From a virus: DNA of 36,520 nucleotides. Shown here in pieces: positions 4,540 to 35,570 of this stretch (position 1 is its first letter; each line of letters begins with the position of its first letter). The notes under the pieces are model-generated. The model had not been told where the DNA came from. It was given only the letters and a program-made list of their open reading frames with translations, and searched no databases. A program made the position numbers and the translations under genes. The DNA is taken from IMG/VR virus record IMGVR_UViG_3300027965_000183, positions 1-36,520 of that record, one strand, 5' to 3'.

Positions 4540-5556
4540 TCAGAGTTTCTTAACGAGATTGTCCATTGCAACGAGACAATTTCTCCGGTAGTCATCCTTG
4601 ACCTGAACGCGGTGACCACCGATGTCCTGTTTGCCTGCTTCTAGTTTCGAGAACGGGCAGCCCTTCGCAAATGCCACGACACCCGTAGTCTGGAAGTCGC
4701 GGATATCCACCGCACCGTCTGCCGGCGTCTTGAAGGTGAAGAACTGCGGATTGGTTTTGGCCAGCGCCCGAATATCGCTGTCAATTTCTTGGAGCACCGC
4801 ATAATAGGCCGAGGCGGGCCCCATGTACTGAGTGAGCCGGTTCTTGACTATCATATGCACCTGGGGAAGTGTTCGGTTGTCCTCGGCAAGTTTCGTGCTG
4901 AAGGCGTGCGTGGCGTAAATCGGCGAAGGCAAACGCAGCCCGTAAACGAGCGAAAGCGCATTCTGCACAGCGCGACGCGATGAATCATCCGCCATGACCG
5001 GCAGAATCAACCGGTCCGCTGCCGCCAGTCCAATCTGCGTATATATCGAGAAACTGGGGTTGCAGTCTAGGAAGATCGGATCATATGTATTATCGAGCGG
5101 CGCGAGTAAGTCCCGCACCCAGTCTATGATTGCAATCCACGTCTTCGTGCCCGGAATCTGAGTATTTGAAAGTGTGCTGATGGCATTTGCCTGAAGTTCC
5201 AAAAGGGGGTCGCCGCAAACCAGGTCGATGTTACTCGGCACGCGGTAATTGAACTTCGACGGCGTCGTAATGAAATCGGAGGGATTGATTGCCGGAACAT
5301 TATAAGGCGATGGGAGCCTCATCTGGAAGTATCCTCCGATGCTGCACCTGGGCAACATTCCTTGCCTCGCTAGGAGATGCTTACTGCCCTGTCCGGTGAG
5401 CCCGCCGAGGAATAGTTCGGATAGATTCGCCTGGGGACAGATGTCGATGGCCAAGATCTTCTTTTTCGGGTTGCGCTCGGCGTAGCGACAGATCGCTTGA
5501 AAAGCCAAACTTGTCTTGCCGGTTCCACCTTTGTTGTTCCAGAATGCATACCGCAT
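4540..5556 (-). CDS. ParA-like ATPase, orphan, moron in tail operon
   Basis: This 338-residue soluble protein has a deviant Walker A box at residues 9-15 (KGGTGKT, with the signature first Lys), a Walker A' region (AIDICPQANLSELF) and a Walker B-like FLDCNP, all typical of the ParA/MinD/Soj superfamily that dimerises on ATP. There is no N-terminal DNA-binding domain and no ParB-like partner nearby. AGGAG lies 8 bases before the ATG. It opposes the tail genes, abuts the upstream gene with zero spacing, and is more A/T-rich than its neighbours, so it looks like inserted cargo. Two near-identical palindromes precede it. A role in partition, lysogenic maintenance or defence is possible; none is proven. 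Confidence 0.8.
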   Translation of the reverse strand: MRYAFWNNKGGTGKTSLAFQAICRYAERNPKKKILAIDICPQANLSELFLGGLTGQGSKHLLARQGMLPRCSIGGYFQMRLPSPYNVPAINPSDFITTPSKFNYRVPSNIDLVCGDPLLELQANAISTLSNTQIPGTKTWIAIIDWVRDLLAPLDNTYDPIFLDCNPSFSIYTQIGLAAADRLILPVMADDSSRRAVQNALSLVYGLRLPSPIYATHAFSTKLAEDNRTLPQVHMIVKNRLTQYMGPASAYYAVLQEIDSDIRALAKTNPQFFTFKTPADGAVDIRDFQTTGVVAFAKGCPFSKLEAGKQDIGGHRVQVKDDYRRNCLVAMDNLVKKL

Positions 5557-12318: not shown

Positions 12319-15300
12319 ATGCCCGACACCATCGGCCGCATCCCTGTGCCCGCGCTCGTCGACTCGGGCCTGACCTTCCCGCTCACATCCGACTTCGGCT
12401 ACGGCTTCAGTCAGGACCGCCCCGTCGTCGTCCACCAGTTCGGCGAACTCGACGCGAAGGCCGAACAGCGCTACGCTGTCGGACTTGGCCCACGCAAGTT
12501 CGCCTTTCGGCGCGAGCATCTCAGCATGCGCGATCGCGCCACATTGGTCTCCTTCTGGGAATCCCTCCAAGGCGCGTGGAAATCGTTCACCTACAACGTT
12601 CCGAATCCCGACCAGTCCACCACGCCCACCAAGGTCACCTGGGAGTACGCACCGCTCACGATCCAGTACCTCGCCAACGCTGCTCAGACCGGCTTCAACT
12701 TCATCGAAGTTCCTGATCCCGCTGCCGCGCCCAACTACACCGTCAACAGCACGTGCCTGCGGTTCCCGTCCTCGGCGCTCCAATCCGCGCTCCTCTCGCA
12801 GGTTCAGCAGATCATTCCGCTCGTCCACATCCGCGTGCGCGAGCAGGCCGTGCCCGACATCCACATCTCCGATCGCCGCGCCACTGTCGGCGGCCAGCCC
12901 TATCTGCCGCGCGTGCTGGGCATCGGCGAGCCTGGCTCCGACGTCATCATCAGCCAGGACATCCGCGGCACCGCCGACAACGTCCAGTTCACTTTCGGCA
13001 ATGCCGACCGCGTGATGACGCAGCTCGCCAACGACACCGATCTCAAGTACGCACAGATCGAGCTGTTGCTGTTCCACATCAACTCCGGCATCCTGCTTCA
13101 GTTGTGGTCGGGTTTCATCATCAGCTTCGTCGCCGACGGCACCGCGCGCTTCACCGTGCAGTGTAGCGACGGCCTTTATCAGATCACGCAGTCTTATCCC
13201 ACCAAGGCGATCTCGCGCCAGTGCTGGAAGACGTTCAACGATGACGTCAACTGCCCCTATGCTACGCACGGCTCCGGCGGCGATCCCAACTCCTGCGATT
13301 ACTACTTCGATTCCGCGAACGGATGCCGCGCGCACGGCATGCAGCAGTATTTCGGAGGCCATCCCGCAACGCCGCAGGGCGTGAGCGTCAAGGACAATTC
13401 GACCGGTCTCTGGGGCTTTGGCCGCAGCACGGTCACGGCCGTCTCGATCATTTCGGACAGCATCTGGGGCAACGCCCTTCAGGAAATCTGGTGCAACGAC
13501 GACGGCGATCCGGGCAAGGCCTTCTGGGTGCAGTGTATGATCGCCGCCGGCCGTGACGAGGGCGATTTCTACGATGCGCTCGGCATCGTGGGCGCGGGGC
13601 CGATTGGCGCATTCACCGGCATGCTCGTGTACCAGAACGCCGACGGCTACCGCTACATCATCGCGCCGCTCCTCGACGGGCAACCTCCGCACGGCTTCAA
13701 GGTGGACGGCAGCCTCAACGTCATCACGAACAACCCAACAATGGGCCTGCGCGAGTCGTTCGGCACCGATCCAACGGATCAAACCTCCGTTGACGACCGG
13801 TTCCTGTTGAGCGCTGGTGGCCAGATCATCGGTGACCAGCGCGCCGCCGGGACCGCCTTTGTCGAGCTTCGCCGCGCGAAACCTTCTGGCATCATGCCGA
13901 CGACCACGGATCAGCACGAAATGAAGGTGCCTATCTCGCAGGGACTCACCGGATGGGTGTGGGACCAAAACGGCAACCGTACCGCCGTGGCGGGCTTGAC
14001 GAATCCGTTCTGGATCGCCGTAAACAGCCTGCTCCGCGCGCTTGGCCTAGCGAACGCGGCTTCCGCAACCCAGTTGGGCAAACTCGTTCTTTCGTCGGTC
14101 ATCGTGGGTAACGGCAGCGGAGCGGCTGAGATCGCGGACACATTGGTGATCCCCATTGTGGGCGGCGGCAACGAGAAGCAGTTCCGGTTTCAGGGAGTGC
14201 TCGCGCAGCAAAAGCCTTTCCGCGACTGGCTCACCGAGATTCTCGCCTGCGGACTTGGCTACTTCACCTGGGAGTTCGGCAAGCTTAAGCTCGGCTGCCG
14301 CATTAACGCATCCGCCGTCGATACGTTCACGCTCGGCAACATGCTGTTCCAAAGCTTGCGCCTGGAGCCCGTCGAGGCCGCCTTCGAGCACCTGATCGTC
14401 GATTTCGCCGACCAGACATATCAATACCAAGCCAACACCGCCGAGTATCAGGACAAGACTCACGCCGCGTATTTTGGCCGCGCCGGCGCACCACTCACCG
14501 CGCGGCAGCACCTCGTGGGATGCGCCACACTCTCGCAGGCTTTGCGCCTGGCGGCCACGCGCACGCGCGAGGAAATCGGCGGCATCAATCCCGCCGAGTG
14601 GCGCAACGCGCGCATGGCCACGTGGAAGACCACGCTGCTGGGCCTGAACAACGAGGTCGGCCAGGTCGTCTCGATCACGCACCTGGATGTGCCCGGCATG
14701 AAGGGCACGTGCTCGGTCACCGCCGGGCAGTGCGGCAATCTGACCGGCGACCCGCTCGACAAATTCATCGTCAACAAAGAGGTTCTGATTAACGGCGTCC
14801 AATGCACCGTGACGCAGATCTTCACCTCGGCGGATTACAAGACGGTCACCGGGTTCGTGGTATCGCCGGCTCCGGCCGACGCCACGAACGCGACGTTCCA
14901 GTTCATCACCGCCGATTTCCGCATCCAGTCCTGGAGGCTCCACAAGGACTGGAGCGTTACCATCACCGGTCGGACCGTGACCGCGTCGATGTACGACCTG
15001 GACATCGGGCCGAAGCCGCTCGACGTGGTACCCGCCCCGCTGCCCGCACTGTTCTATCCAATTCCGGCAGGGCCGACGTGGGCTCCGTACCAGGTCCAAG
15101 CGCGCTCCGACGATGCGCTGTTTCCGGGCGAGTGGACCTTCGGCACGAATCAATCCTATGCGCAGTTGGCCGATGGCAGCGTGTTGGCGAATCTGATCGT
15201 AACCGGCAAGCTTCCCACGAACGCGTTCAGTCCAGGCGTTGGCGCGCCTGTGGCCGGCCGCATCGTCGTGAACACCACCGGCGGTTCGCTCGTGGGCGGA

Positions 15301-16677
15301 ACGACGATCCGGCTGACACTATGCGCGCTCGACGCGAAAGGCCTGCCATCGGTCCCGATGGCCATCGCGATTGTGCCCCTGCCAACGGGCGGCTCGACGT
15401 ACTCGATCACGCTGAATAACATCGTTTGGCCCGCCGTAGCCGGCTTGCAGAGCTACGTCGCGTTCGCGTCCGCGCAGGACGATCTGATCTGCGCGCAGCA
15501 GAGTGGCCCGCTCACGCCCACCGGCAACGGGACCACCTACACGCCCGGGTCGATCACGTTCACCGGACTATTGCGGCGGTCCACATACGCGCTTCCGTCA
15601 CCATATGTGAAGAAGCTCCGGCTCAAAGCCAAACATGAAATCCACGGCGGCGTCATCGGCGGCCAGATCGATAGCGTGTCCGCTGGCGCGCTGGTCATCG
15701 GCGCTCTGAAGGGCCCGCCGCCATCCACGAATCCATCCTGGACGCCGGTGGGTCGCATCGTCTCGATTATCGGCAGGCCGGAAGGAGCCACGCCGTTCTT
15801 CAGCGCGAAGGTGACCTCGTGGGACCAGGCCACCGGCACCGTCGGCCTCACTCCCGATCCCAACGGTATCGTCCAGGAGGGCGATTGCTTTGTTCTGCGC
15901 TTCAACGCCGATGCATCGAACACCGCGAATCCAACCTCGATCACGGATTCCGGTATCCAGAACCCCGTCTATCCGAACGGCATGACGCCTGGCGCGGAGG
16001 TGGGCAATCTGATCCGCGTGATTCAGGGCGCCTCGCGCGGGACCCAGCCGCGGAAGATTATCGCCAACACTGCGACCGCGATCACTTGGGACCTTCCGAT
16101 GGTCATCAGTCCCGGTGATGTGTGGATTATCGAAGAGCCGACGTGGCCCTACTCCTGCGACACAACCTCATTCGACAACGCCGACCCGCTGGCCACCACG
16201 ACCATCAACATGCCCACCGGCAACTTCGTAGACGAGACGCTCGTGATCGCCGGTTTCACTGTTGACGTAAACGGCAATGAGTCGCCCGATGGCGACGCTC
16301 CCATCCGCGAGGACTGGGTGTTCGGTGCGGAAGGACTGTCGAAAGTCGCGGGACTCGTGTTCCAGATGCAGGGCACGCTGGGGATCGAGTCCAACGCGGC
16401 CCAACCTTTATATCTGAATCGCCCGGTCACTGTGGGCGACGTCAAGGCTTATGTGCAGTCGGCACCTACCGGTTCAGGGATCACGTTCACGATATACGTC
16501 GGCGGCACGGCCTGGCTCACTCTCACGATTCCCGCCGGCCAGACGGCTGTGGTCGCGACGCCGTCGCAGATCAGCGCCCTATCGCAGATCCCGGCGAATG
16601 CGGCGCTATCCATTGGCATCACGGCGGTGGGCAGCACGTTTCCGGGCGCGGACCTTTCGGTTTTCATTTACTCGTAA
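12319..16677 (+). CDS. Giant tail-tip protein: M-like, L-like (four-Cys) and J/hub-like domains fused
   Basis: This 1452-residue protein has an N-terminal part (about 1-110) resembling distal-tail/DUF2460 proteins (FPLTSDFGYGFSQ; RDRATLVSFWESLQG). Residues about 130-350 resemble lambda L and DUF2163-type proteins. They end in four cysteines C302, C312, C326 and C336, with SCDYYFDSANGCRAHG close to the lambda L motif that binds a [4Fe-4S] cluster. The middle (about 600-900) resembles gpJ/hub proteins (CGLGYFTWEFGKLKLG; a WRNARMATW helix). The C-terminal 500 residues are beta-rich, with repeated fibronectin-like strands, and probably face the receptor. In lambda these jobs belong to separate genes. 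It begins 9 bases after the M-like gene. Confidence 0.8.
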   Translation: MPDTIGRIPVPALVDSGLTFPLTSDFGYGFSQDRPVVVHQFGELDAKAEQRYAVGLGPRKFAFRREHLSMRDRATLVSFWESLQGAWKSFTYNVPNPDQSTTPTKVTWEYAPLTIQYLANAAQTGFNFIEVPDPAAAPNYTVNSTCLRFPSSALQSALLSQVQQIIPLVHIRVREQAVPDIHISDRRATVGGQPYLPRVLGIGEPGSDVIISQDIRGTADNVQFTFGNADRVMTQLANDTDLKYAQIELLLFHINSGILLQLWSGFIISFVADGTARFTVQCSDGLYQITQSYPTKAISRQCWKTFNDDVNCPYATHGSGGDPNSCDYYFDSANGCRAHGMQQYFGGHPATPQGVSVKDNSTGLWGFGRSTVTAVSIISDSIWGNALQEIWCNDDGDPGKAFWVQCMIAAGRDEGDFYDALGIVGAGPIGAFTGMLVYQNADGYRYIIAPLLDGQPPHGFKVDGSLNVITNNPTMGLRESFGTDPTDQTSVDDRFLLSAGGQIIGDQRAAGTAFVELRRAKPSGIMPTTTDQHEMKVPISQGLTGWVWDQNGNRTAVAGLTNPFWIAVNSLLRALGLANAASATQLGKLVLSSVIVGNGSGAAEIADTLVIPIVGGGNEKQFRFQGVLAQQKPFRDWLTEILACGLGYFTWEFGKLKLGCRINASAVDTFTLGNMLFQSLRLEPVEAAFEHLIVDFADQTYQYQANTAEYQDKTHAAYFGRAGAPLTARQHLVGCATLSQALRLAATRTREEIGGINPAEWRNARMATWKTTLLGLNNEVGQVVSITHLDVPGMKGTCSVTAGQCGNLTGDPLDKFIVNKEVLINGVQCTVTQIFTSADYKTVTGFVVSPAPADATNATFQFITADFRIQSWRLHKDWSVTITGRTVTASMYDLDIGPKPLDVVPAPLPALFYPIPAGPTWAPYQVQARSDDALFPGEWTFGTNQSYAQLADGSVLANLIVTGKLPTNAFSPGVGAPVAGRIVVNTTGGSLVGGTTIRLTLCALDAKGLPSVPMAIAIVPLPTGGSTYSITLNNIVWPAVAGLQSYVAFASAQDDLICAQQSGPLTPTGNGTTYTPGSITFTGLLRRSTYALPSPYVKKLRLKAKHEIHGGVIGGQIDSVSAGALVIGALKGPPPSTNPSWTPVGRIVSIIGRPEGATPFFSAKVTSWDQATGTVGLTPDPNGIVQEGDCFVLRFNADASNTANPTSITDSGIQNPVYPNGMTPGAEVGNLIRVIQGASRGTQPRKIIANTATAITWDLPMVISPGDVWIIEEPTWPYSCDTTSFDNADPLATTTINMPTGNFVDETLVIAGFTVDVNGNESPDGDAPIREDWVFGAEGLSKVAGLVFQMQGTLGIESNAAQPLYLNRPVTVGDVKAYVQSAPTGSGITFTIYVGGTAWLTLTIPAGQTAVVATPSQISALSQIPANAALSIGITAVGSTFPGADLSVFIYS

Positions 16678-16730
16678 TCGCAGTCTCGGCGTGTTATCGG
16701 TCCGCCACGCGCGCGCGAATCGAATTCAGC

Positions 16731-16736
16731 TACAAT
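16731..16736 (+). promoter_or_regulatory. Candidate -10 box for the GHKL-nuclease gene
   Basis: TACAAT differs from the sigma70 consensus at one position and stands out in a GC-rich 93-base gap. It ends 34 bases before the preferred start codon. No convincing -35 was found. It overlaps an earlier in-frame ATG (16735), which argues against that start. Confidence 0.45.
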
Positions 16737-16770
16737 GCTGGTTTTCCATAGATCTCACGTCGGAGCGCAA

Positions 16771-18468
16771 ATGAGCGAATTCATTCTGGTACCCACCGTC
16801 GACCAAGCCCAGGAGTTCATAGAAATCGCGAACGATTTCGCAAATCCTCTTGATCTGGTTAGGGAGGCCATTAGCAATGCCTTTGACGCCCACGCGACGG
16901 AGATCCGTCTAGAATTCGATACAGAGCTCATTTCCGGTGAGACGACGTTCGTAATTCGACTCACGGATAATGGCCATGGCATGGATCGGGCAGGCCTCCA
17001 GGCGTTCTTCGATCTCGGCAATTCTACGAGACGGGCTGACAAGAGCACGATCGGCGAAAAGGGTCACGGAACAAAGGTCTACTTCAACGCGAAGAGACTC
17101 ACGGTGGACACTCAGCGCGATGGGACCCGTCTCTTAGCAGTGTTGGACTCGCCATTCACAAAGCTCCACAACCGCCAAATACCTGAGGTTCGTGTCCAGG
17201 AGGAGCCGAGTGAAACGCAGGCGAGTGGAACATGCATCACCATCTGTGGCTACAACAATAACCGCCGAGAGCGCTTCACCCATAGCCGTTTAAAAGATCA
17301 CATTTTGTGGTTTACAAAATTTGGCAGTATAGAGCGGCAGTTCAGCATCGACGCACTCGCCTGCGTCAAGCTTCAGCTAAAGGGTTTGGATCGAGATGAT
17401 CTCGAAGTACTTGATTTCGGCCACCCCTTTCCGAGTGAGAGCGAAGATGTCGGTGTACTCTTTGACAAATATGTAATCCAGGCACCGAATTACTATTGCC
17501 GGCGACTCATTCGGACCGGCAGCCTGCCCAATCATCCAGAGGTGCGATACCACGCCATTTTCTCCGTTGAAGGCAAGCGCGTGAAGTACGACAACAATCC
17601 TATGCTTCGCCGCCCAGGCTACAATGCGCCCGACGGGGCTTATACGGTTCAGGACCGCTATGGACTCTGGCTCTGCAAGGATTTCATCCCGATCCAGCGA
17701 AAGAATGAATGGGTCACCACGAAGGGATCTGAGTTTACCAAGCTGCATGCGTTCCTCAACTGCCAGGCATTGAAACTCACCGCGAACCGCGGCTCCGTCG
17801 AAAACACGCCCTCCGAGATCTTGCAGGATGTGGAAACTGTCGCGCGCAGAATCTACCAAGATCTCACGGAAGGTGACGAATGGCTGCAGCTGAGCTACCT
17901 GGAAGAGGAGGCGGACACGTACAACACGATTGAGAAAGAGAAGAAAAATTTCTCTTTTCGCGTCGATAAGGCCAACGCAGCCAAGATCGCGGCCTTTCAG
18001 GACATCACACTTGTCGAACCAAAACGCGAGAGTGGCGTTCACAGTCTCGTCGTGCAGTTGATGACGATTGAGCCGCAGTTGTTCCCGTTCACCATCGTCG
18101 ACTATGACACGCTCGAAGGGATCGATGTGATCGTTAAAGCAAACGATGCCGTTCCTGTGCACGGATCGCGGCTCTATTACGTAGAGTTTAAGTATCTTCT
18201 GTCAACTGCCTTCAATCATTCATTCGAGAATTTGCACAGCATCATATGCTGGGACACCGAGCTTAAGCACGGTGACATCATTAAAGACATTAACCGCGAA
18301 GAGCGGAAGCTTTCGATTATCGCGCCTGCAACGCCTGCTGATTACACACGGTATTTCCTCGACAACCCCCGCAAGGCCCACAGAATTGAAGTTTATGTCC
18401 TGAAGGACTACCTGCACCAAAAGCTGAAGCTGGAATTCCGACCGCGTACACCCACCGACATCCATTAG
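16771..18468 (+). CDS. GHKL (MORC/MutL/Hsp90-type) ATPase with C-terminal PD-(D/E)XK-like nuclease, moron
   Basis: This has 565 residues from the ATG with GGAG five bases upstream; an ATG at 16735 overlaps the presumed -10 box and is unlikely. The N-terminal domain has the Bergerat fold: N-box E32-x3-N36 with D39, G1 box DNGHGM at 66-71, and G2 box GEKGHGTK at 95-102. A transducer-like middle region follows. Near the C-terminus, D452 in EGIDVIV and E472-F-K474 (YYVEFKYLL) give the D...ExK spacing of a PD-(D/E)XK nuclease, followed by a hydrophobic SIICWD strand. ATP-gated clamps of this class often work with nucleases, and MutL/MORC relatives occur beside restriction systems. It is visibly A/T-richer than the tail genes around it. 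A defence role is inferred. Confidence 0.8.
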   Translation: MSEFILVPTVDQAQEFIEIANDFANPLDLVREAISNAFDAHATEIRLEFDTELISGETTFVIRLTDNGHGMDRAGLQAFFDLGNSTRRADKSTIGEKGHGTKVYFNAKRLTVDTQRDGTRLLAVLDSPFTKLHNRQIPEVRVQEEPSETQASGTCITICGYNNNRRERFTHSRLKDHILWFTKFGSIERQFSIDALACVKLQLKGLDRDDLEVLDFGHPFPSESEDVGVLFDKYVIQAPNYYCRRLIRTGSLPNHPEVRYHAIFSVEGKRVKYDNNPMLRRPGYNAPDGAYTVQDRYGLWLCKDFIPIQRKNEWVTTKGSEFTKLHAFLNCQALKLTANRGSVENTPSEILQDVETVARRIYQDLTEGDEWLQLSYLEEEADTYNTIEKEKKNFSFRVDKANAAKIAAFQDITLVEPKRESGVHSLVVQLMTIEPQLFPFTIVDYDTLEGIDVIVKANDAVPVHGSRLYYVEFKYLLSTAFNHSFENLHSIICWDTELKHGDIIKDINREERKLSIIAPATPADYTRYFLDNPRKAHRIEVYVLKDYLHQKLKLEFRPRTPTDIH

Positions 18469-18555
18469 GACTCAGTTTCTCCAACCCGTAACGCGAATAA
18501 GTCTTGCGCACCGACACGGCGGCGCACGTTGCTGCGCGTTGATTCACGGCGACCA

Positions 18556-21500
18556 ATGGACCAGATCCTCAAACTACAACCCCACCGCACCCTCCATCTC
18601 CAAGGCTTCGACGACTATGGCGCGGCGGCCGCGTTCTGGGGAGCCTCGGACACAGGCTTCACCGTCTCCGGCGTGTTCCGCGACATGGCCGATTTCGCCG
18701 TGCTCGTTCTGCTCCAGAAAGATGACCCGTTCGGCCACCCGCGCTTCTCCTATCTCCCCGACGGCGATCTCACGGGCCTCGCGCTCGACTTCGATGTCAC
18801 CTGGGAAGGCATCCAATCCTGGGAATCGATCAAGAACGCCTGGACCGACTGGAACACGCTCGGTTACTCCGTCAAAGGCGCCGGCCAGCGCGTGCCCTGG
18901 TTTGGCACCTCGGGCATCACCATCACCTGCAACACAGCGGGCCGCACTGGCGCGTCGGCCACCTACACGCTCAACCTAAACAATCCGCAGCCCGGCGACA
19001 AGGTCACGCTCTGGTATCAAAACCAGTCCTTCGTCAGCCCGGCGATTTCCGCCTCGCACCCCACCACCGACCAGGCAATGTGGTGGCAGGGCAACGCCGC
19101 CTACAACCACTGGGTCACGATCGGCTCGGCCACGTACTCGTGCGTTGAAGGTTCGCTCAACAGCGCGGGCATCGCTGCCAACATCGCCGCGCAAATCAAC
19201 GCCTCCGATCCCAACTGCACAGCCACCACGGGCGGTGCCTCCGGCAACGAGATCTTCATCACGCTGAAAGCCGGCGTCTCCGGGCCAGTCGCGGTTTCAA
19301 GCTCCGATGGCTCGGCCGCCGACATGCTGACGCAGACCACCGCGGCGGCGATCCTACAGCCCATCGCGAACCAGATCAATGCCGTCAACTGGCCCGCCAA
19401 CAGCACGCCTGCCCTGACCGCGACCGTATCCGGCAACAACCTGGTCATCACCGCCGCGCCGGGCGCCGACGGCAATATGGTCGCGTTCTACCAGACCGAC
19501 AACAACTCAAGCAGCCGCCTCTACTTCACCGCCAGCAACTGGAATCTCTCCGGTGGCTCCTCGGATGACGTTTCCTGGCACGTCCACATCAACTTCACCA
19601 CGCTCGGTTGGAGCAACGTGGACAAAGTCTGGTGGACCATTGCGCCGGCGCTTCCGGAAGGCCAAGCCTACCAGCCCACCGAGTGGAAGATGGTCGTCAC
19701 CAACTGGACCATTACCGATTCCGCAGGCAAGCGCGCGCTTAAGGTGGCCGGGCCGGGATCGGTTCGCATCGAAGAAGACAGCACGTGGGTGAAAACCTCC
19801 GGCTACTGGGAAGCCGCGCCGGGAAACGATCCCGTGAGCGGCGCGTTCGCCTTCTGGAGTCAGGGCCGCGCGATCCGTGCCGCGGCCGCCGGCGCGAGCG
19901 TGACCATCGAGACGCACTGCCAGTCCACGCACGACATCTACGTCGGCACGCGGCTCGATACCAACTGCGGCATCGTGAGCGCCACGCTCGACGGGGGCGC
20001 GCCTGTCACGCTCGATTGCTATTACCCGCAGGCCACGACCTCCCAAACGCGGCGCTTGCTTTTCTCCGGCGCCGCCGCCGGCCAGCACAGGATCGTGATC
20101 ACCCTCACGGGCAACAAGAACCCGTCGAGCCAGGGCTGGTACTTCTATTTCGATTTCCTCGAATGCGCGGTGAAGAGCGACGTGCCGGATCCGGTTTCAA
20201 CCACCACCGCCGTGAGCGTCGCAACCGACTTCGACACAGACAACACCTACAAGCTCTCGCCGCAACGGCTCCTGTGGAACATTCAGAAACTCGGGCTACT
20301 GGGCGAGATCGACCACTACTGCGGCGTCTTCTGGTGGAAGCAGGCCGTGGCGCAGAATCCGTCGTACCCGCAATGCACGGTCACCTTCACGGGCAATTGG
20401 AGCGACCAGGATGTGATCTGGCTGCACGTGGGCGGCTCGGCGATCGGCAAGACGATTTTCGGCGGCCAAGACACGAACTCGACCGTTGCGCGCCACTTCG
20501 CCAATTTCATGAACGGGATTTTCGATGGTGTCTGGGCCTCGGCCGCCGGCAACGTGCTCACGATTACCTCGCATTCGTTCGGAACCAACTGGCAATACCA
20601 CGTGTACACAGAACTAGCCGCCACCGGCTCCGGCCAGGCCACAGTGACCGGCGATCTCCAGGGCGGCAGCTACGGAGTGAAGTGGGCGATTGATCCGGCG
20701 CAGACTCCCGTGCTCAACCGGGCGTTCCGCGACTGGCACGCCGATTTCTTCGCGCTGCTCAAGGCCAATAACATGAGCGCGGTCTGCTCGTTTTCACAGG
20801 AGCTGGTGAATCCACCCGATAGCTGGGTCCAGCGATTCCCCGATGGTGCGCCGGTGCAGACCGCGACCGGTTTCGGCACTCTCAACAGTTCCCAGATCGC
20901 GTTCGGCTCAGGACCGCAGGCGTACATGCAGCAGGCGTATGCCGCGATCGCCAGCCTGATGCAGGCGGCGGGGCTCACCCCGAAGGTGCAATTCGGCGAA
21001 ATTCTGTGGTGGTTCCAGGCGAACGTCTCAGGCATGGCGTTCTACGACGCCGAAACGCAGGCCGCCGCACAGTCGGCACTCGGCCGCCCGCTGGTGACGT
21101 TTCTGACGCCCAACGACGATCCCTCCATCAACAGCTACGCGGACGCGAACTTCCTGCGGACGCGCCTGTACAACTACGTCGCCGCGATCCAGAGCTACGT
21201 TCTCTCGCAGGTCGCGTCGGCGGTGTTCGAGCTGCTGTGGCCCATGGACGTGAATGACCCGGAGACGCGCCGACTGCTGCGCTACATCAACCTGCCGACG
21301 CAATGGACGGGGCGCGCCGGTTCCGGTTTCGACACGTTGCTGATCGAGGGCTACCAGTATCCGGGGATTGACCACAACCTCGACAAAGCCGTGCGCTGCG
21401 CCTCGTACCCGTGGAAAGAACTCGCCTGGGACGAGGCCCACAGCCGCTACCTGATGGGCCTGTTCTACGCCACGTGGCCGTGGCTCCGCGAGTTCGTCAA

Positions 21501-21612
21501 GGTGAACCGCCTCGGCCTGCCCGCTATCAAGCTCTGGGCCTACGATCATCTCTGCCTGTTCGGCTGGCCCGTCCCGCTTCCCACGAGCGACGCCCGCTCC
21601 TTCATCTACTGA
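18556..21612 (+). CDS. Large tail fibre-like protein with putative glycosidase-like C-terminal domain
   Basis: This 1018-residue protein is separated from the hub gene only by the GHKL moron. The first 150 residues are beta-rich. Residues about 150-550 contain Ser/Thr/Gly-rich strand repeats and two HxxY/NxA-like segments resembling carbohydrate-binding modules. From about 715 to the end it is alpha/beta with many Trp, Tyr, Asp and Glu residues (CSFSQELVNPPDSW; FGEILWWF; FELLWPMDVND; LIEGYQYPGIDH), suggesting a TIM-barrel glycoside hydrolase. No catalytic pair can be assigned. The start is by position; no ribosome site is evident, so an in-frame start at 18529 is possible. It probably binds or trims host surface glycans. 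Confidence 0.65.
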   Translation: MDQILKLQPHRTLHLQGFDDYGAAAAFWGASDTGFTVSGVFRDMADFAVLVLLQKDDPFGHPRFSYLPDGDLTGLALDFDVTWEGIQSWESIKNAWTDWNTLGYSVKGAGQRVPWFGTSGITITCNTAGRTGASATYTLNLNNPQPGDKVTLWYQNQSFVSPAISASHPTTDQAMWWQGNAAYNHWVTIGSATYSCVEGSLNSAGIAANIAAQINASDPNCTATTGGASGNEIFITLKAGVSGPVAVSSSDGSAADMLTQTTAAAILQPIANQINAVNWPANSTPALTATVSGNNLVITAAPGADGNMVAFYQTDNNSSSRLYFTASNWNLSGGSSDDVSWHVHINFTTLGWSNVDKVWWTIAPALPEGQAYQPTEWKMVVTNWTITDSAGKRALKVAGPGSVRIEEDSTWVKTSGYWEAAPGNDPVSGAFAFWSQGRAIRAAAAGASVTIETHCQSTHDIYVGTRLDTNCGIVSATLDGGAPVTLDCYYPQATTSQTRRLLFSGAAAGQHRIVITLTGNKNPSSQGWYFYFDFLECAVKSDVPDPVSTTTAVSVATDFDTDNTYKLSPQRLLWNIQKLGLLGEIDHYCGVFWWKQAVAQNPSYPQCTVTFTGNWSDQDVIWLHVGGSAIGKTIFGGQDTNSTVARHFANFMNGIFDGVWASAAGNVLTITSHSFGTNWQYHVYTELAATGSGQATVTGDLQGGSYGVKWAIDPAQTPVLNRAFRDWHADFFALLKANNMSAVCSFSQELVNPPDSWVQRFPDGAPVQTATGFGTLNSSQIAFGSGPQAYMQQAYAAIASLMQAAGLTPKVQFGEILWWFQANVSGMAFYDAETQAAAQSALGRPLVTFLTPNDDPSINSYADANFLRTRLYNYVAAIQSYVLSQVASAVFELLWPMDVNDPETRRLLRYINLPTQWTGRAGSGFDTLLIEGYQYPGIDHNLDKAVRCASYPWKELAWDEAHSRYLMGLFYATWPWLREFVKVNRLGLPAIKLWAYDHLCLFGWPVPLPTSDARSFIY

Positions 21613-28635: not shown

Positions 28636-28973
28636 TGCAGTCGGCTTCTCCTCGGGAATCCGCGGTTGTAGCGGCCATCATGCGCGCGCTCAAATCCACT
28701 CCCGGTGTCGTCGTTCGGAAGCGCCACGGAACCGGGATGGGGATCGCGGGTGATCCGGATCTGTACGGCGCCGTCAATGGCCGCCACTTCGAAATCGAGG
28801 TCAAGCGGCCCAACGATCCTTCGTCCCGTCTGACGGAGCTGCAAGCTCAGCGGCTCCTGGAGTGGCAACGGGCCGGCGCAATCACCGGCGTCGCGCGCGG
28901 CGCGGATGATGCACTCGAAATCCTGGGCTTGACGCGGGATGACACGCGTGCGGCCGCGCCGGAGGCCTCGTGA
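28635..28973 (+). CDS. VRR-NUC-type PD-(D/E)XK nuclease
   Basis: This 112-residue single domain has an N-terminal helix, then GDPDLYG (39-45) and HFEIEVKRPN (51-60), giving the D...E-x-K active site with D40/D42, E55 and K57, then LTELQAQRLLEWQRAGAITGVARG, the Q/W helix and closing strand typical of VRR-NUC domains. Such phage proteins act as structure-specific or Holliday junction nucleases in recombination and DNA processing. It overlaps the membrane protein by one base and the methyltransferase by four. Confidence 0.85.
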   Translation: MQSASPRESAVVAAIMRALKSTPGVVVRKRHGTGMGIAGDPDLYGAVNGRHFEIEVKRPNDPSSRLTELQAQRLLEWQRAGAITGVARGADDALEILGLTRDDTRAAAPEAS

Positions 28974-30337
28974 TCTACGGCTCGGTGTGCTCCGGCATCG
29001 AAGCCGCAACCGCGGCCTGGCATGGCCTCGGCTGGCGGCCCGCATGGTTCGCCGAGATTGATCCGTTCGCGAGCGCGGTGCTTGCCTATCGCTACCCGGA
29101 GGTTCGAAACCTTGGCGACTTCACCTCGATCCGGGGCCGCTGGCTCCGGCGCATCGGAGCGGCGGCAGTTGACCTTCTCGTGGGAGGCACCCCTTGCCAG
29201 TCCTTCTCCGTCGCCGGACGCCGCCTCGGATTGGATGACGCGCGCGGCAACCTCACGCTCGAATTTCTCAAGCTGGCGAAGCGCCTTCGTCCACGGTGGA
29301 TCGTGTGGGAAAACGTCCCTGGCGTCCTGTCGATCGACTCTGGAGGGACGTTTGGAACCGTGCTCCGGGCGCTGGCTGAACTCGGGTATGGGATCGCTTA
29401 CCGGGTTCTGGACGCTCAGTTCTTCGGAGTGCCCCAGCGCCGCCGCCGCGTGTTCGTTGTCGGACATCTTGGAGCGTGGCAGGCTGCCGCGGCGGTACCT
29501 TTTGAGCGCGAAAGCTTGCGCCGGGATCTTGCGCCGGGCCGCAAGGCGCCGGAGATCGCTGCCGCCATTACTGCGAACGGCCTTGGAACGTGTGGCGGCG
29601 ACGCAAAGCAGGCACAGGCCGGCCACCTGATCCCGTTCGGCGGAAACAACGGTTCTGGGCCGCTGGACGTCGCGACCGCCTGCAACGCGCATGGCGGCGC
29701 CGGCCGCATGGACTTCGAAACCGAAACTCTCTGTGTCGAGATCGCGCCGCCGCTGCTTGCGGGGGCAAACCGTAAAGGCGGCGACCGCTTCCCCGGCATG
29801 AGCGCGGACACGTGCGAGTCGCTGATTGCGTTCTCGTGCAAAGACTCGGAAGCCGATGCAATGGAGGATGTGGCGCCCACTCTCCGGGCGATGGGCCACA
29901 GCGAGTCGCATGCGAACGCGGGAGGGCAAGTTACGGTGGTGTTCGAATCCCGCTTCGCGCGCAACGGACGCGGCGCACCCGGCGTGATCGCGCCGCCGCT
30001 CAAGGCGCAGTCGGGTAGCTCGGGCCGCGGCGACGGCGCGCCCCTGCTGGCGACGTGGGTCGCGGTGCGCCGATTGACTCCGCGAGAGTGCGAGCGTCTG
30101 CAGGGCTTTCCAGACGACTGGACGCTGGTCCCGAACTACGCGCAGAAACTTCGCGCGGACGAGCTCGAGGAAATGGCCGCGTACCTAGACATCCCGTTTG
30201 AAGCGGCTCGGGTGCTGGGCGCGACGCCGGACGGCCCGCGATACAAGGCCATCGGCAACAGCATGGCTGTGCCGGTCATGCGCTGGATCGGACAGCGGCT
30301 CGATCACGTGGATCGCGCGCTGCGGAGGACCGCATGA
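28970..30337 (+). CDS. DNA (cytosine-5) methyltransferase, orphan
   Basis: This has 455 residues from a GTG overlapping the preceding stop (GTGA). Motif I is CSGIEA (7-12), motif II EIDPFASAVL, motif IV GGTPCQSFS with catalytic C76, motif VI ENV (114-116), motif VIII QRRRR, and near the end LQGFPDDWT and AIGNSM (motifs IX-X). A long target-recognition region lies between. It transfers a methyl group from S-adenosylmethionine to carbon 5 of cytosine. No restriction enzyme with an obvious matching role is adjacent, so it probably protects phage DNA against host restriction or tunes expression. Its target site cannot be read from sequence. The last four bases overlap the next start. Confidence 0.93.
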   Translation: MIYGSVCSGIEAATAAWHGLGWRPAWFAEIDPFASAVLAYRYPEVRNLGDFTSIRGRWLRRIGAAAVDLLVGGTPCQSFSVAGRRLGLDDARGNLTLEFLKLAKRLRPRWIVWENVPGVLSIDSGGTFGTVLRALAELGYGIAYRVLDAQFFGVPQRRRRVFVVGHLGAWQAAAAVPFERESLRRDLAPGRKAPEIAAAITANGLGTCGGDAKQAQAGHLIPFGGNNGSGPLDVATACNAHGGAGRMDFETETLCVEIAPPLLAGANRKGGDRFPGMSADTCESLIAFSCKDSEADAMEDVAPTLRAMGHSESHANAGGQVTVVFESRFARNGRGAPGVIAPPLKAQSGSSGRGDGAPLLATWVAVRRLTPRECERLQGFPDDWTLVPNYAQKLRADELEEMAAYLDIPFEAARVLGATPDGPRYKAIGNSMAVPVMRWIGQRLDHVDRALRRTA

Positions 30338-32510: not shown

Positions 32511-34215
32511 GTGATTACACCCGATCAAATTCAGGAAGTCGCGGAGGGGCGGGCCGAAGAAACACGGGAATTCCGTATCTTCGGCCCGCCTTGACGGAAA
32601 GACAGGGACAGGAAAAACCACAAACCTCACGCGCCAGATCGCCCGCGCCGTTGACAAGTTTGGTCCCGATTCGGTCCTGGTGACGTCGTTTTCCCGGAGC
32701 GCTGCCGCGGAGCTGGCCGGGCGCGACCTGCCGATCGCCGGCGATCGGATTGGCACGCTTCACTCGCACTGCTATCACGCGCTGGGCGGCCCAGAGATCG
32801 CGGAGGCGAACGTCGATGAGTGGAATCGGGACCATCCTTCGCTTGCCATTACCCCGGTGAAGAGGCAGGGAAAGCTTGATGGCGAGGAATCCATCGCAGA
32901 AGACGATTCGGACTCAGAAAAAGAAGGCGACAGGCTCCTTCAGCAGTTGAACCGCTTCCGCGGCCGGATGATTCCGGCTCGGGGCTGGCCGAAAACTGTC
33001 ATGGAGTTCGCCGCCAAATGGCAGGAGTACAAAGACGCCAACGGCCTGCTCGATTTCACGGATCTCATCGAGAGATGTTATCGGGACGTTTACTGCGCGC
33101 CCGGCAATCCTTCCGTGATCTTTGCGGATGAGGCGCAGGACCTGAATCGCTTGCAGTTGTCGCTTGTGCGGAAATGGGGAGAGCGGGCCGCATACTTCAT
33201 CGTCGCGGGTGACGATGATCAGACCATCTTTTCGTTCTGCGGAGCGACGCCTGACGCGTTCCTCGATCCAGACATTCCGGACGATCACAAGATCATCCTG
33301 AAACAGTCGTATCGGGTGCCGCGCGCTGTTCACGCGCTCGCGGAGAAGACGATTCGCGGAGTGGGCCGGCGTCAGGAGAAGATCTATTTGCCGCGTGCGG
33401 CCGACGGTGCCGTCCATCGGTTAGGTCGCGACGGCTACAAACATCCCGAGCTGTCGATCATCCCCGAAGTCATCAATCACGTTGCGCGGGGCAAAAGCGT
33501 CATGCTGCTGGCCTTGTGCTCCTACATGCTTCGCGCGGTAATCCAGGTGCTTCGCAAGGAAGGCGTCCCGTTTCACAATCCATATCGCAAGGCGAACGGT
33601 TTCTGGAATCCGCTGCGGGCCGCCAGGAAGGGCTCGACCTCCGGACGCGTGTTGGCTCTGGTTTCCAGCGCGCCCGATGTGCAGGGTTTCCGGCCGTGGA
33701 CGAACGGCGACGTTCGGGCGTGGGCCGAAGTGCTCCAGTCAAAAAGCATCCTGCGGCGCGGCAGTAAGAAGGCCCTCGCGGATTACGATCCCGAAGAAGT
33801 CGCCACGCTTTCCGCAAAAGGAATTCTGATGCAGTGCTTCGAACCAGCCGCCCTCGAATCGCTGGCGGCCGCCTGGGACGCGGGCTACCTGGCTCTCCTC
33901 CAATGGTGGCGCGAGCGTTTGACCGCCGATGCATTCAAGCGTGCGCAGTTTCCGGCGGATGTCGCCGCCAAACATGGGCCGCGCGGCTTAACGGAGATGC
34001 CCAAGGTGGTCGTCGGCACGATCCACTCCGTGAAAGGGGGCGAGGCCGACGTTGTTTATCTCTTTCCCGATCTCAGCCAGGCGGCGGCCGCCCAATACGA
34101 AAGCCGTGGGCCGGCGCGCGATTCGGTGACTCGCGTGTTTTACGTCGGCATCACACGCGCGCGGGAAGCGCTTAATATCTGCTATCGGGAGTCCCCGGAT
34201 GCGATTTGCCTGTGA
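32511..34215 (+). CDS. UvrD/Rep-superfamily helicase, frame broken at the P-loop
   Basis: A GTG at 32511 begins TPDQIQEVAEGRAEETREF, the usual UvrD-type start, and runs to RIFGPP, where TGA at 32592-32594 stops it. The +1 frame then carries DGKTGTGKTTNLTRQI (P-loop) and a full helicase: FADEAQDLN (motif II), GDDDQTIF (III), QSYRVP (IV), GTIHSVKGGEADVV (V) and FYVGITRAREAL (VI). The downstream frame has no normal start before GTG 32680, which would give an enzyme without Walker A. Joining both gives about 563-567 residues. Either a +1 shift at CCT-TGA-C restores a valid GxxxxGKT motif, or a 13-base insertion has killed the gene, or it is a sequencing error. Confidence 0.8.
32592..32602 (+). 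repeat. 11-base direct repeat copy A, inside the helicase P-loop break
   Basis: TGACGGAAAGA here contains the premature TGA of the helicase. The same 11 bases recur at 34213-34223, where they begin with the true stop of the same gene. If a GPPGTGKTT P-loop is assumed as ancestral, the extra bases are 32592-32604. Confidence 0.6.
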
Positions 34216-35570
34216 CGGAAAGATTGCAGTTGCCTATGACTGCGGATAAAGGTACCCTCCTGTCGCTGTTGACGGGAGGCGCCGGATTGAAAACGAGAGT
34301 CCAGCACCCCAAGGTGCAGGAGTGCCGCGATTACAAGCAGTGGTATTGGTTCTTCCGCTACTGGCACGACGAATTGCTCCCAGATGGCTCGGTGAAGACG
34401 AGCCGGAAACGCCACATCTGCGGCGACAGCCGCGGGCCGAACAAGATCACGCATACGCGCGCGGAAGAGATTAGAGACGACTTTCTGCACGACCTGAAAA
34501 TAAAGGCTAAACAGCAGGCCGAAGGCGCCGCCGCCCAGGAAAAGGCAGCCAAGGAACCGGACGCGCCCATCGACCCGCGCCAAATCATCTTCGGCAAATT
34601 GGCCGAGTTGTGGCTCAAGGACTATGCCGAGAACCCGAAGGTTAAACTCGCGCAGCCCACGCGCGAGAAGTACCGGATACGAATGGATACCCATATCCTG
34701 CCCCGATGGAAGGACGCGCGTCTGACGGAACTCGATAACAGCAAGGCCATCGTTGACTGGCTCCAGGGGGAGTGCACTTCGTGGTGGATGATGGTCGATC
34801 TCCGAAATATTATGAGCGGCGTCATCACCCGTGCGCAGGAGTGGGGCATTGTCCCGCGTTCTTACGCGAACCCGATGAAATGGGTGAAGCTCGGCCGGAA
34901 ATGGACTGTGTGGGAAGACCGCATTCTTTCGGATGAGGAGACGGCAGCCGTGTTCGCGCGCCTTGCGGACCCGCACTTGCTGATCTGCGAAACCTGCATT
35001 TACACGGGCACGCGCATCAGCGAGGCAGTGGGCCTCACCCTGAAGTGCGTCGATCTGAAGAAAGGCACCATCAAAATCGAGAGGCGGCATTGCCGCGGAG
35101 ACGTTGACGATCCGAAATCCGCGAGCAGCAAGCGCGTCCTTGCGCTCGGTGTGCTCATCGATCGCTATGCGGAGTGGATAGGTAAGAAAGGCATCAAGGA
35201 GCCGAATGCGTGGATCTTCTCTCAACCCGAGGACAGCTCAAAACCAATGTGGGATTCGGGCGTGCGCAAGGCGCTAAAACTCGCCGCGGAAGATGCCAAA
35301 TGCGACTTCCCCGGTTTCGGCCTGCATTCGTTCCGTCGCGCCAATATTACGCTCCGACAGGAGGTCGGCGGCAGTGCGATCGAGGCCTCAAAGATCGCCG
35401 GCCACTCCGGGCTGGCCATCACTGGCGAGTACACGAAAGTGCAGCTACGCCGCCAGGAGGAGTTGACGCGCGCGATCCAGGACCGCATCGAAGAAGCGCG
35501 GCGCAAGCAGGAAGCGGAAGCCGCCAAGGAGCGGAGTGGAAATCAGGATGCCTCGGAGGCGGCGGCATGA
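34212..35570 (+). CDS. int: Tyrosine integrase
   Basis: This has 452 residues from the GTG that overlaps the helicase stop (GTGA). TTG 34206 and ATG 34236 are alternatives. The N-terminal part is basic and resembles an arm/core DNA-binding region (YKQWYWFFRYWHDE; FGKLAELWLKDYAE). The catalytic domain has R268 in TGTRISEAVGL, a beta-hairpin Lys region (DDPKSASSKR), H372-S-F-R375, H398 in AGHSG and nucleophile Y407 in GEYTK. It inserts the phage into, and helps remove it from, the host chromosome. It is fused by overlap to the replication operon and lacks an evident promoter of its own. The C-terminal 35 residues are a Glu/Arg-rich helix. Confidence 0.92.
   Translation: MTERLQLPMTADKGTLLSLLTGGAGLKTRVQHPKVQECRDYKQWYWFFRYWHDELLPDGSVKTSRKRHICGDSRGPNKITHTRAEEIRDDFLHDLKIKAKQQAEGAAAQEKAAKEPDAPIDPRQIIFGKLAELWLKDYAENPKVKLAQPTREKYRIRMDTHILPRWKDARLTELDNSKAIVDWLQGECTSWWMMVDLRNIMSGVITRAQEWGIVPRSYANPMKWVKLGRKWTVWEDRILSDEETAAVFARLADPHLLICETCIYTGTRISEAVGLTLKCVDLKKGTIKIERRHCRGDVDDPKSASSKRVLALGVLIDRYAEWIGKKGIKEPNAWIFSQPEDSSKPMWDSGVRKALKLAAEDAKCDFPGFGLHSFRRANITLRQEVGGSAIEASKIAGHSGLAITGEYTKVQLRRQEELTRAIQDRIEEARRKQEAEAAKERSGNQDASEAAA
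34213..34223 (+). repeat. 11-base direct repeat copy B, at the helicase stop/integrase start
   Basis: TGACGGAAAGA begins with the stop codon of the helicase frame and contains the first codons of the integrase frame (GTG ACG GAA AGA from 34212). It is identical to the sequence at 32592-32602. Confidence 0.6.

Follow-up and report, generated by a model that had tools for sequence, protein, structure and literature searches.

A GHKL ATPase-nuclease gene between the tail hub and tail fibre genes of a phage: a candidate ATP-gated defence nuclease carried as prophage cargo

The stretch of soil phage DNA analysed here (hereafter the window, an IMG/VR record covered over its full 36,520 bases) carries, exactly between the genes for a tail hub protein and a tail fibre, a gene whose product combines a GHKL ATPase, an S5-like transducer region and a PD-(D/E)XK-like C-terminal domain. 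We consider it probable that this gene encodes a stand-alone, ATP-gated restriction or defence nuclease that travels as prophage cargo (a 'moron') of a temperate phage. In the mechanism that we propose, ATP binding would dimerise the N-terminal GHKL-S5 module, which is of a kind that ATP drives to close into a dimer clamp, around or beside DNA, clamp closure would pair two C-terminal nuclease domains, and the paired domains would cut incoming foreign DNA, i.e. that of rival phages; the benefit to the prophage would be that its host is kept alive.

Gene and domain architecture

The features of the region are the following:

12319..16677, + strand: tail hub protein, J-like, left flank (phrog_31 central tail fiber J, 5.7e-7; 49 IMG/VR relatives)
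16678..18555, + strand: inserted cargo segment of 1878 bases, from J stop to fibre start (junction abuts in 20 related phages)
16762..16765, + strand: GGAG, ribosome-site-like as read from the letters, 5 bases 5' of ATG 16771
16771..18468, + strand: gene for the GHKL ATPase-S5-PD-(D/E)XK protein, 565 aa, stop codon included (ORF call, Pfam, alignment, model)
16834..17250, + strand: GHKL (Bergerat) ATPase domain, about residues 22-160 (Pfam HATPase_c_3; structural match to the Morc3 ATPase)
17353..17910, + strand: S5-like transducer region, about residues 195-380 (model, VIA alignment, conservation)
17962..18465, + strand: predicted PD-(D/E)XK-like nuclease domain, residues 398-565 (separate model, structural ranking)
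18028..18030, + strand: codon of E420, at the helix start before the core sheet; invariant
18124..18126, + strand: codon of D452; invariant
18184..18192, + strand: codons of E472-F-K474; E and K invariant
18556..21612, + strand: tail fibre gene, right flank (phrog_6040, 1.7e-30; tail assembly family, 3.6e-7)

The reading frame starts at ATG 16771 (MSEF), a Met position that the homologues share, and ends with the stop codon 18466-18468; an in-frame alternative start lies at ATG 16735. The sequence-only reading had given the gene its own -10 box and ribosome site: a TACAAT hexamer (16731-16736) and the GGAG do exist, but a promoter scan of the upstream region yielded no signal exceeding chance. 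That the gene is richer in A/T than its neighbours was borne out, the GC fraction of the insert being 0.526 against 0.631 for the J hub gene. Between the window gene and its three nearest homologues dN is 0.14-0.18 (0.14 to the nearest) and synonymous sites are saturated in these comparisons, which implies that the gene is under purifying selection.

Conservation was read from an alignment of 33 full-length bacterial proteins, the window protein included, the others being 36-80% identical to it. In the case of the N-terminal part, E32 (codon 16864-16866, + strand), N36 and D39, D66, G68 and G70, and I94-G95 and K97-GHGTK102 are all invariant; the open reading frame is real, and the complete N-, G1 and G2 boxes that had been read in it hold across the family. 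With these motifs on a Bergerat fold the protein belongs to the GHKL ATPase superfamily, and the ATPase is also the sole part of its 565 residues that Pfam recognises (HATPase_c_3, residues 30-144, E 1.9e-14, 54 bits against a cut-off of 25). The S5-like region that follows contains an invariant K303-D304 and LTANR(336-340). In a full-length model (mean pLDDT 89) residues 9-374 match the Morc3 ATPase with a structural Z of 22.1, residues 9-380 align to MORC3, Hsp90, TopoVI-B and GyrB at Z 20-22 (VIA), and a long helix (residues 369-403) is predicted to connect the GHKL-S5 module with the C-terminal domain. At the sequence level, the nearest NCBIfam models are those of the BbrUII/HgiDII restriction enzymes (NF050001) and the sacsin-type ATPases, and PADLOC gave only weak hits; for the N-terminal domain there are also weak matches to MutL models and to a family of RIIA-type phage proteins (phrog_612, 0.0035). 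Phage records yielded nothing beyond a partial match to rIIA of Sinorhizobium phage ort11, in which the likeness is confined to the ATPase.

The C-terminal domain, modelled alone (pLDDT 92.3, pTM 0.88), matched neither SduA_C nor any other Pfam family in sequence; a search of its profile against the sequences of solved structures gave nothing meaningful, and Foldseek alone no match below 0.001. When the 999 best Foldseek chains were realigned by VIA, EndoMS/NucS, VC1899, DdmD, MspJI, Avs4, McrC, NucC, HamA, SPARDA, Hjc and BamHI came to the top; the first 20 rows read as PD-(D/E)XK-type nucleases or known relatives, and several of the structurally closest nucleases are defence nucleases. The EndoMS/NucS rows have Z 5.9, 5.9, 5.4 and then 4.2. 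Since the best of these is middling, and taken alone could reflect a common arrangement, the case for a PD-(D/E)XK nuclease is made by the one-sided list together with the invariant D...E-x-K. In the numbering from the MSEF start, which had been given correctly for D452, E472 and K474, these three residues and E420 are unchanged in all 33 proteins; in the model D452 lies just ahead of a strand (453-457) and E472 and K474 lie within another (468-477), so that the predicted core fold would hold the D and the E-x-K in one site, as is characteristic of the superfamily.

The hub-fibre junction and its cargo

The record contains an integrase-like gene (34206-35570) and a ParA-like gene (4540-5556), so the phage is likely temperate. 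A search of phage records found no relative of it; the comparison was made with 49 IMG/VR contigs that carry a relative of the hub gene. In 20 of these the junction is empty, in 21 it is filled by 0.3 to 3.4 kb, and in the other eight it is cut off or unclear. An empty junction reads, for instance, 'tcg TAA atggaccagatc' (L094), with the fibre start straight on the hub stop. The split of hub from fibre gene that had been described for the window is therefore exact: the J stop codon (16675-16677) and the fibre start, which the relatives place at ATG 18556 and not at the TTG 18529 of the ORF call, abut in phages without insert. The insert shows the hallmarks of a moron: divergent composition, absence from close relatives and a precise position between phage genes.

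The other inserts are diverse, and where ORFs could be listed their GC content is mostly below that of the hub gene. They include a TIR/SEFIR gene (L099:14415-15710, - strand), a pair of ParA-like and HEPN-like genes (L123:14496-16284, - strand), a DUF5677 gene (L133:14451-15191, - strand) and further cargo at L100:14421-15260 (- strand), L113:14505-15767 (- strand) and L139:15899-18107; several of the cargo genes have no match in Pfam, and we regard the cargo genes listed here, with or without such a match, as candidates for new defence genes. Most of this cargo is oriented opposite to the tail genes, whereas the GHKL gene shares the strand of J and fibre. HNH genes were recognised by eye in two phages (L111, L117), an 851-aa tail-spike-like gene was read in three (L121, L122 and L124; six phages share that insert length), and two inserts are short with no clear gene (L103, L130). 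Given the tail-spike-like and HNH-like cargo, the junction does not serve defence genes exclusively, but is a site of variable and partly defence-like cargo.

Some observations concern the wider phage group. A related phage with a cargo-free junction has, at another place in its genome, a gene for a different GHKL ATPase (L131:2259 onward; 29% identity over residues 29-166). An Acidobacteriota genome contains a related tail module without insert (L145, G558:C127:20000-39500; hub 38-47% identical), which suggests that Acidobacteriota are the hosts of this group. The window phage itself encodes a cytosine-5 methyltransferase (28970-30337, + strand; phrog_116, with PCQ, ENV and QRR motifs), of a type encoded in 4 of 37 records of related phages. 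These include relatives without the GHKL gene, and we judged it a weak candidate for a partner.

Distribution and genomic neighbours of the family

The best homologues, 75-80% identical, come from Acidobacteriaceae and a verrucomicrobial MAG, a Caballeronia plasmid encodes a full-length homologue (59% identical), and two haloarchaeal plasmids encode relatives that are 28-31% identical. When 84,980 genomes were scanned with an alignment of four proteins (window, Caballeronia and the two haloarchaeal relatives), 61 loci were obtained. In IMG/VR a single-protein search found no homologue and an alignment search one further virus with a relative; no other IMG/VR virus was found to carry the family at the hub-fibre site. 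With one exception, the remaining bacterial homologues that we found are located in cellular genomes or on a plasmid and outside phage records. The 33 aligned proteins span about a dozen phyla that are mixed in their tree, and one of 347 sampled Acidobacteriota carries the family; together these point to a rare, laterally moving gene.

Among 131 neighbouring proteins, taken up to two genes to each side of the bacterial members, there is no constant partner. The neighbours that recur are methyltransferases, EcoO109I- and Eco47II-type endonucleases, Mrr-type nucleases, resolvases and integrases. Methyltransferases of two unrelated families were counted by hand in 34 genomes and records: 5 of the 34 members have such a gene at a distance of up to 5 kb (PF00145 in 3), where 0.63 would be expected; the P of about 5e-4 comes from a post hoc test, chosen after the neighbour list had been seen. 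Two genes away from the 80% identical homologue (L029) there is a metacaspase-like gene, accompanied by an unassigned 132-aa gene and, by eye, a tyrosine-recombinase-like gene, and these surroundings (L029:9025-12763) are possibly a defence island; the TIR-like look of another gene there could not be confirmed.

The haloarchaeal relatives (L003, L004, L040-L063) stand apart. They are GHKL proteins associated with TGT genes, homologous over most of their length and 27-34% identical in the aligned part, on a very long branch of the tree; their C-terminal part matches the profile weakly (E 6.6e-4), and the nuclease E-x-K is missing in the two that were aligned in full. Their gene lies directly behind one for a TgtA-like transglycosylase, abutting it in 20 of 22 loci (in the other two a longer ORF start overlaps), a DUF6884 gene is found about 1.2 kb ahead in 20 of 22, and QueC, QueD and QueE are near some (e.g. 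L004:6278-9542). These loci look like an undescribed operon for 7-deazaguanine-linked DNA modification or defence.

Relation to known systems and alternative functions

The design of a GHKL ATPase joined to a nuclease has been described before. Iyer, Abhiman and Aravind defined paraMORC3 in 2008 as GHKL-S5 proteins with a C-terminal RE-fold domain and E-D-ExK residues, noted that a subset is stand-alone without conserved neighbours, and recognised in the pairing the logic of MutL-MutH (PMC2292703). In 2025 VcSduA, a GHKL-DUF4263 protein of the Vibrio cholerae island VSP-II, was equated with paraMORC3 and with Shedu type I-D and found to act against phages in the laboratory, E27A in the ATPase and K557A in the nuclease both being inactive (PMC12137116). 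The window protein has the architecture of Shedu type I-D, i.e. a GHKL regulator and a PD-(D/E)XK domain in a stand-alone gene. Like VcSduA it consists of one gene without partner, on a mobile carrier, with an N-terminal GHKL, a clamp-like middle and a C-terminal PD-(D/E)XK-like domain. VcSduA is longer, however (its catalytic K is at 557 instead of 474), and has a DUF4263/SduA_C nuclease, whereas the C-terminal domain of the window protein shows neither a match nor profile-profile similarity to SduA_C. PF14082 (SduA_C) was found neither in the window protein or the 33 members, at E up to 1, nor at the gene locus in the genomes of 11 members. In hhalign comparisons the domain reached a probability of 0.4-0.5% against Shedu- and BbrUII-type domains, with 0.5% for the Shedu proteins, where the positive comparison, i.e. 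BbrUII-type nuclease domains against Shedu SduA_C, gave 95.7% (E 9e-9). The protein likely works like VcSduA, but since its C-terminal domain lacks a Shedu/SduA_C match this function is transferred by architecture only; remote common descent with the Shedu nuclease inside the PD-(D/E)XK superfamily is possible.

By description, the window protein resembles paraMORC3 in its GHKL-S5 and RE-fold domains and E-D-ExK residues, but paraMORC3 was later equated with DUF4263 proteins (PMC12137116), and by sequence the window protein is not one of these. MORC proper was rejected, as the S5 motif GhXhhpXXRhl (PMC2292703) is missing from all 33 members. With BbrUII/HgiDII the family shares the arrangement of GHKL ATPase and C-terminal PD-(D/E)XK domain, and in hhalign the two align over the ATPase alone (98%, E 1e-13). 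NF050001 covers residues 30-219 of the window protein (3.9e-9), but its 35.6 bits fall far short of the cut-off (550), and BbrUII/HgiDII genes mostly adjoin a cytosine methyltransferase, whereas the window gene has none adjacent. Identity with VcSduA/Shedu or BbrUII was dropped because the alignments cover the ATPase and leave out the C-terminal domain. The closest solved structures to that domain, NucS/EndoMS (Z 5.9, rmsd 3.1-3.4 Å over 89-93 residues), differ in having 12-15% identity, no sequence match and another partner domain. As a separate observation, the BbrUII/HgiDII (NF050001) enzymes at our loci L081 and L085-L092, most of which adjoin a cytosine methyltransferase, have a nuclease domain of the SduA_C kind that is related to Shedu; this links a classical type II family of restriction enzymes with Shedu/VcSduA.

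The likeness to BbrUII/HgiDII raises the question of whether the protein is simply the endonuclease of a conventional restriction-modification system, ATP-dependent and type II-like, with the phage cytosine methyltransferase at 28970-30337 as its partner. We consider this unlikely: methyltransferases do occur near 5 of 34 members and the phage enzyme has PCQ, ENV and QRR motifs, but 29 members have none nearby, those found belong to two unrelated families with separate type II endonucleases among the neighbours, the phage enzyme is encoded at a distance of 10 kb and is also present in relatives without the GHKL gene, and the C-terminal domain differs from that of BbrUII. The lead of EndoMS/NucS in the structural ranking and the weak MutL matches of the ATPase, i.e. 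the MutL-MutH logic (PMC2292703), would fit a nuclease whose main role is not defence but the processing of mismatched, branched or recombining DNA of the phage or its host. This is a distinctly unlikely reading, as the Z values are middling and near those of other PD-(D/E)XK nucleases, and the family, unlike repair genes, is rare and patchy and occupies mobile or cargo-like sites. The same structural likeness leaves a small place for a variant within defence, in which a MutL-like clamp with a NucS/EndoMS-like nuclease would sense abnormal structures in the DNA of invading phages (a mismatch, a branch or an intermediate of replication) and cut there, discriminating by structure and not by sequence or modification; the nuclease would then be a separate PD-(D/E)XK branch, recruited independently of those of Shedu and BbrUII.

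Other alternatives concern the phage itself. The strand shared with J and fibre and the lack of an own promoter above chance would suit late expression from the tail operon and a function in the lytic cycle (host takeover, DNA processing or a role like that of rIIA, RIIA-type proteins being GHKL ATPases too). Against this, which makes it very improbable in our view, 20 close relatives have an intact junction and lack the gene, its bacterial homologues lie with one exception outside phage records, and the RIIA likeness stops at the ATPase. That the gene is a passenger without benefit, i.e. host or mobile DNA that became trapped where inserts are tolerated, some of the other inserts at the junction being short and without clear gene, is hardly credible in view of the low dN at saturated synonymous sites, the retention of all catalytic residues and an insert trimmed exactly to stop and start codon.

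A stand-alone, ATP-gated defence nuclease carried as cargo is supported by the invariant ATPase and nuclease residues, the GHKL-S5 fold and the PD-(D/E)XK-like C-terminal domain; by the exact, lower-GC insert at a junction of which 20 relatives have the empty and 21 a filled form, where TIR/SEFIR, HEPN-like and DUF5677 genes also occur; by the rarity and patchiness of the family, its methyltransferase and endonuclease neighbours and the metacaspase-like gene near one member; and by the integrase in the window and the architecture of VcSduA, which defends and needs both active sites. It is weakened by the small share of members near a methyltransferase and the post hoc nature of that test, by the structural or HNH-like part of the junction cargo, by the nuclease Z of 5.9 without SduA_C match, and by the lack of a second IMG/VR virus with the family at the junction. 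From this balance we infer a role in defence. The sequence-only reading had likewise predicted a single-gene ATP-gated nuclease, probably for defence, and as a prediction this is well supported: none of the three outcomes that it had named against itself was found, as the model of residues 398-565 ranks PD-(D/E)XK-type nucleases at the top, the active-site residues are invariant, and the gene occupies a cargo junction of related phages while methyltransferases lie near some bacterial members. Its further claim of an undescribed system holds for the family, the nuclease domain and the phage cargo junction, but not for the combination of GHKL and PD-(D/E)XK, known from paraMORC3 since 2008 and from VcSduA.

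The protein appears to be akin to anti-phage proteins whose activity was demonstrated recently, and not to be a wholly new system: what is new is this family, its branch of PD-(D/E)XK nucleases and the hub-fibre cargo junction, and what was known is the design of GHKL clamp plus nuclease. Because the nuclease has no Pfam entry and no well-fitting model in the PADLOC version searched, current searches miss the family. The junction, of which empty and filled versions can be distinguished to the base, offers a simple route for harvesting candidate defence genes. If our reading is true, the joining of a GHKL clamp to a PD-(D/E)XK nuclease has happened repeatedly and with different nucleases, i.e. 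with those of the Shedu type and with that of the family described here, and the 'ATP-gated clamp plus nuclease' would be a general defence design instead of the property of one family.
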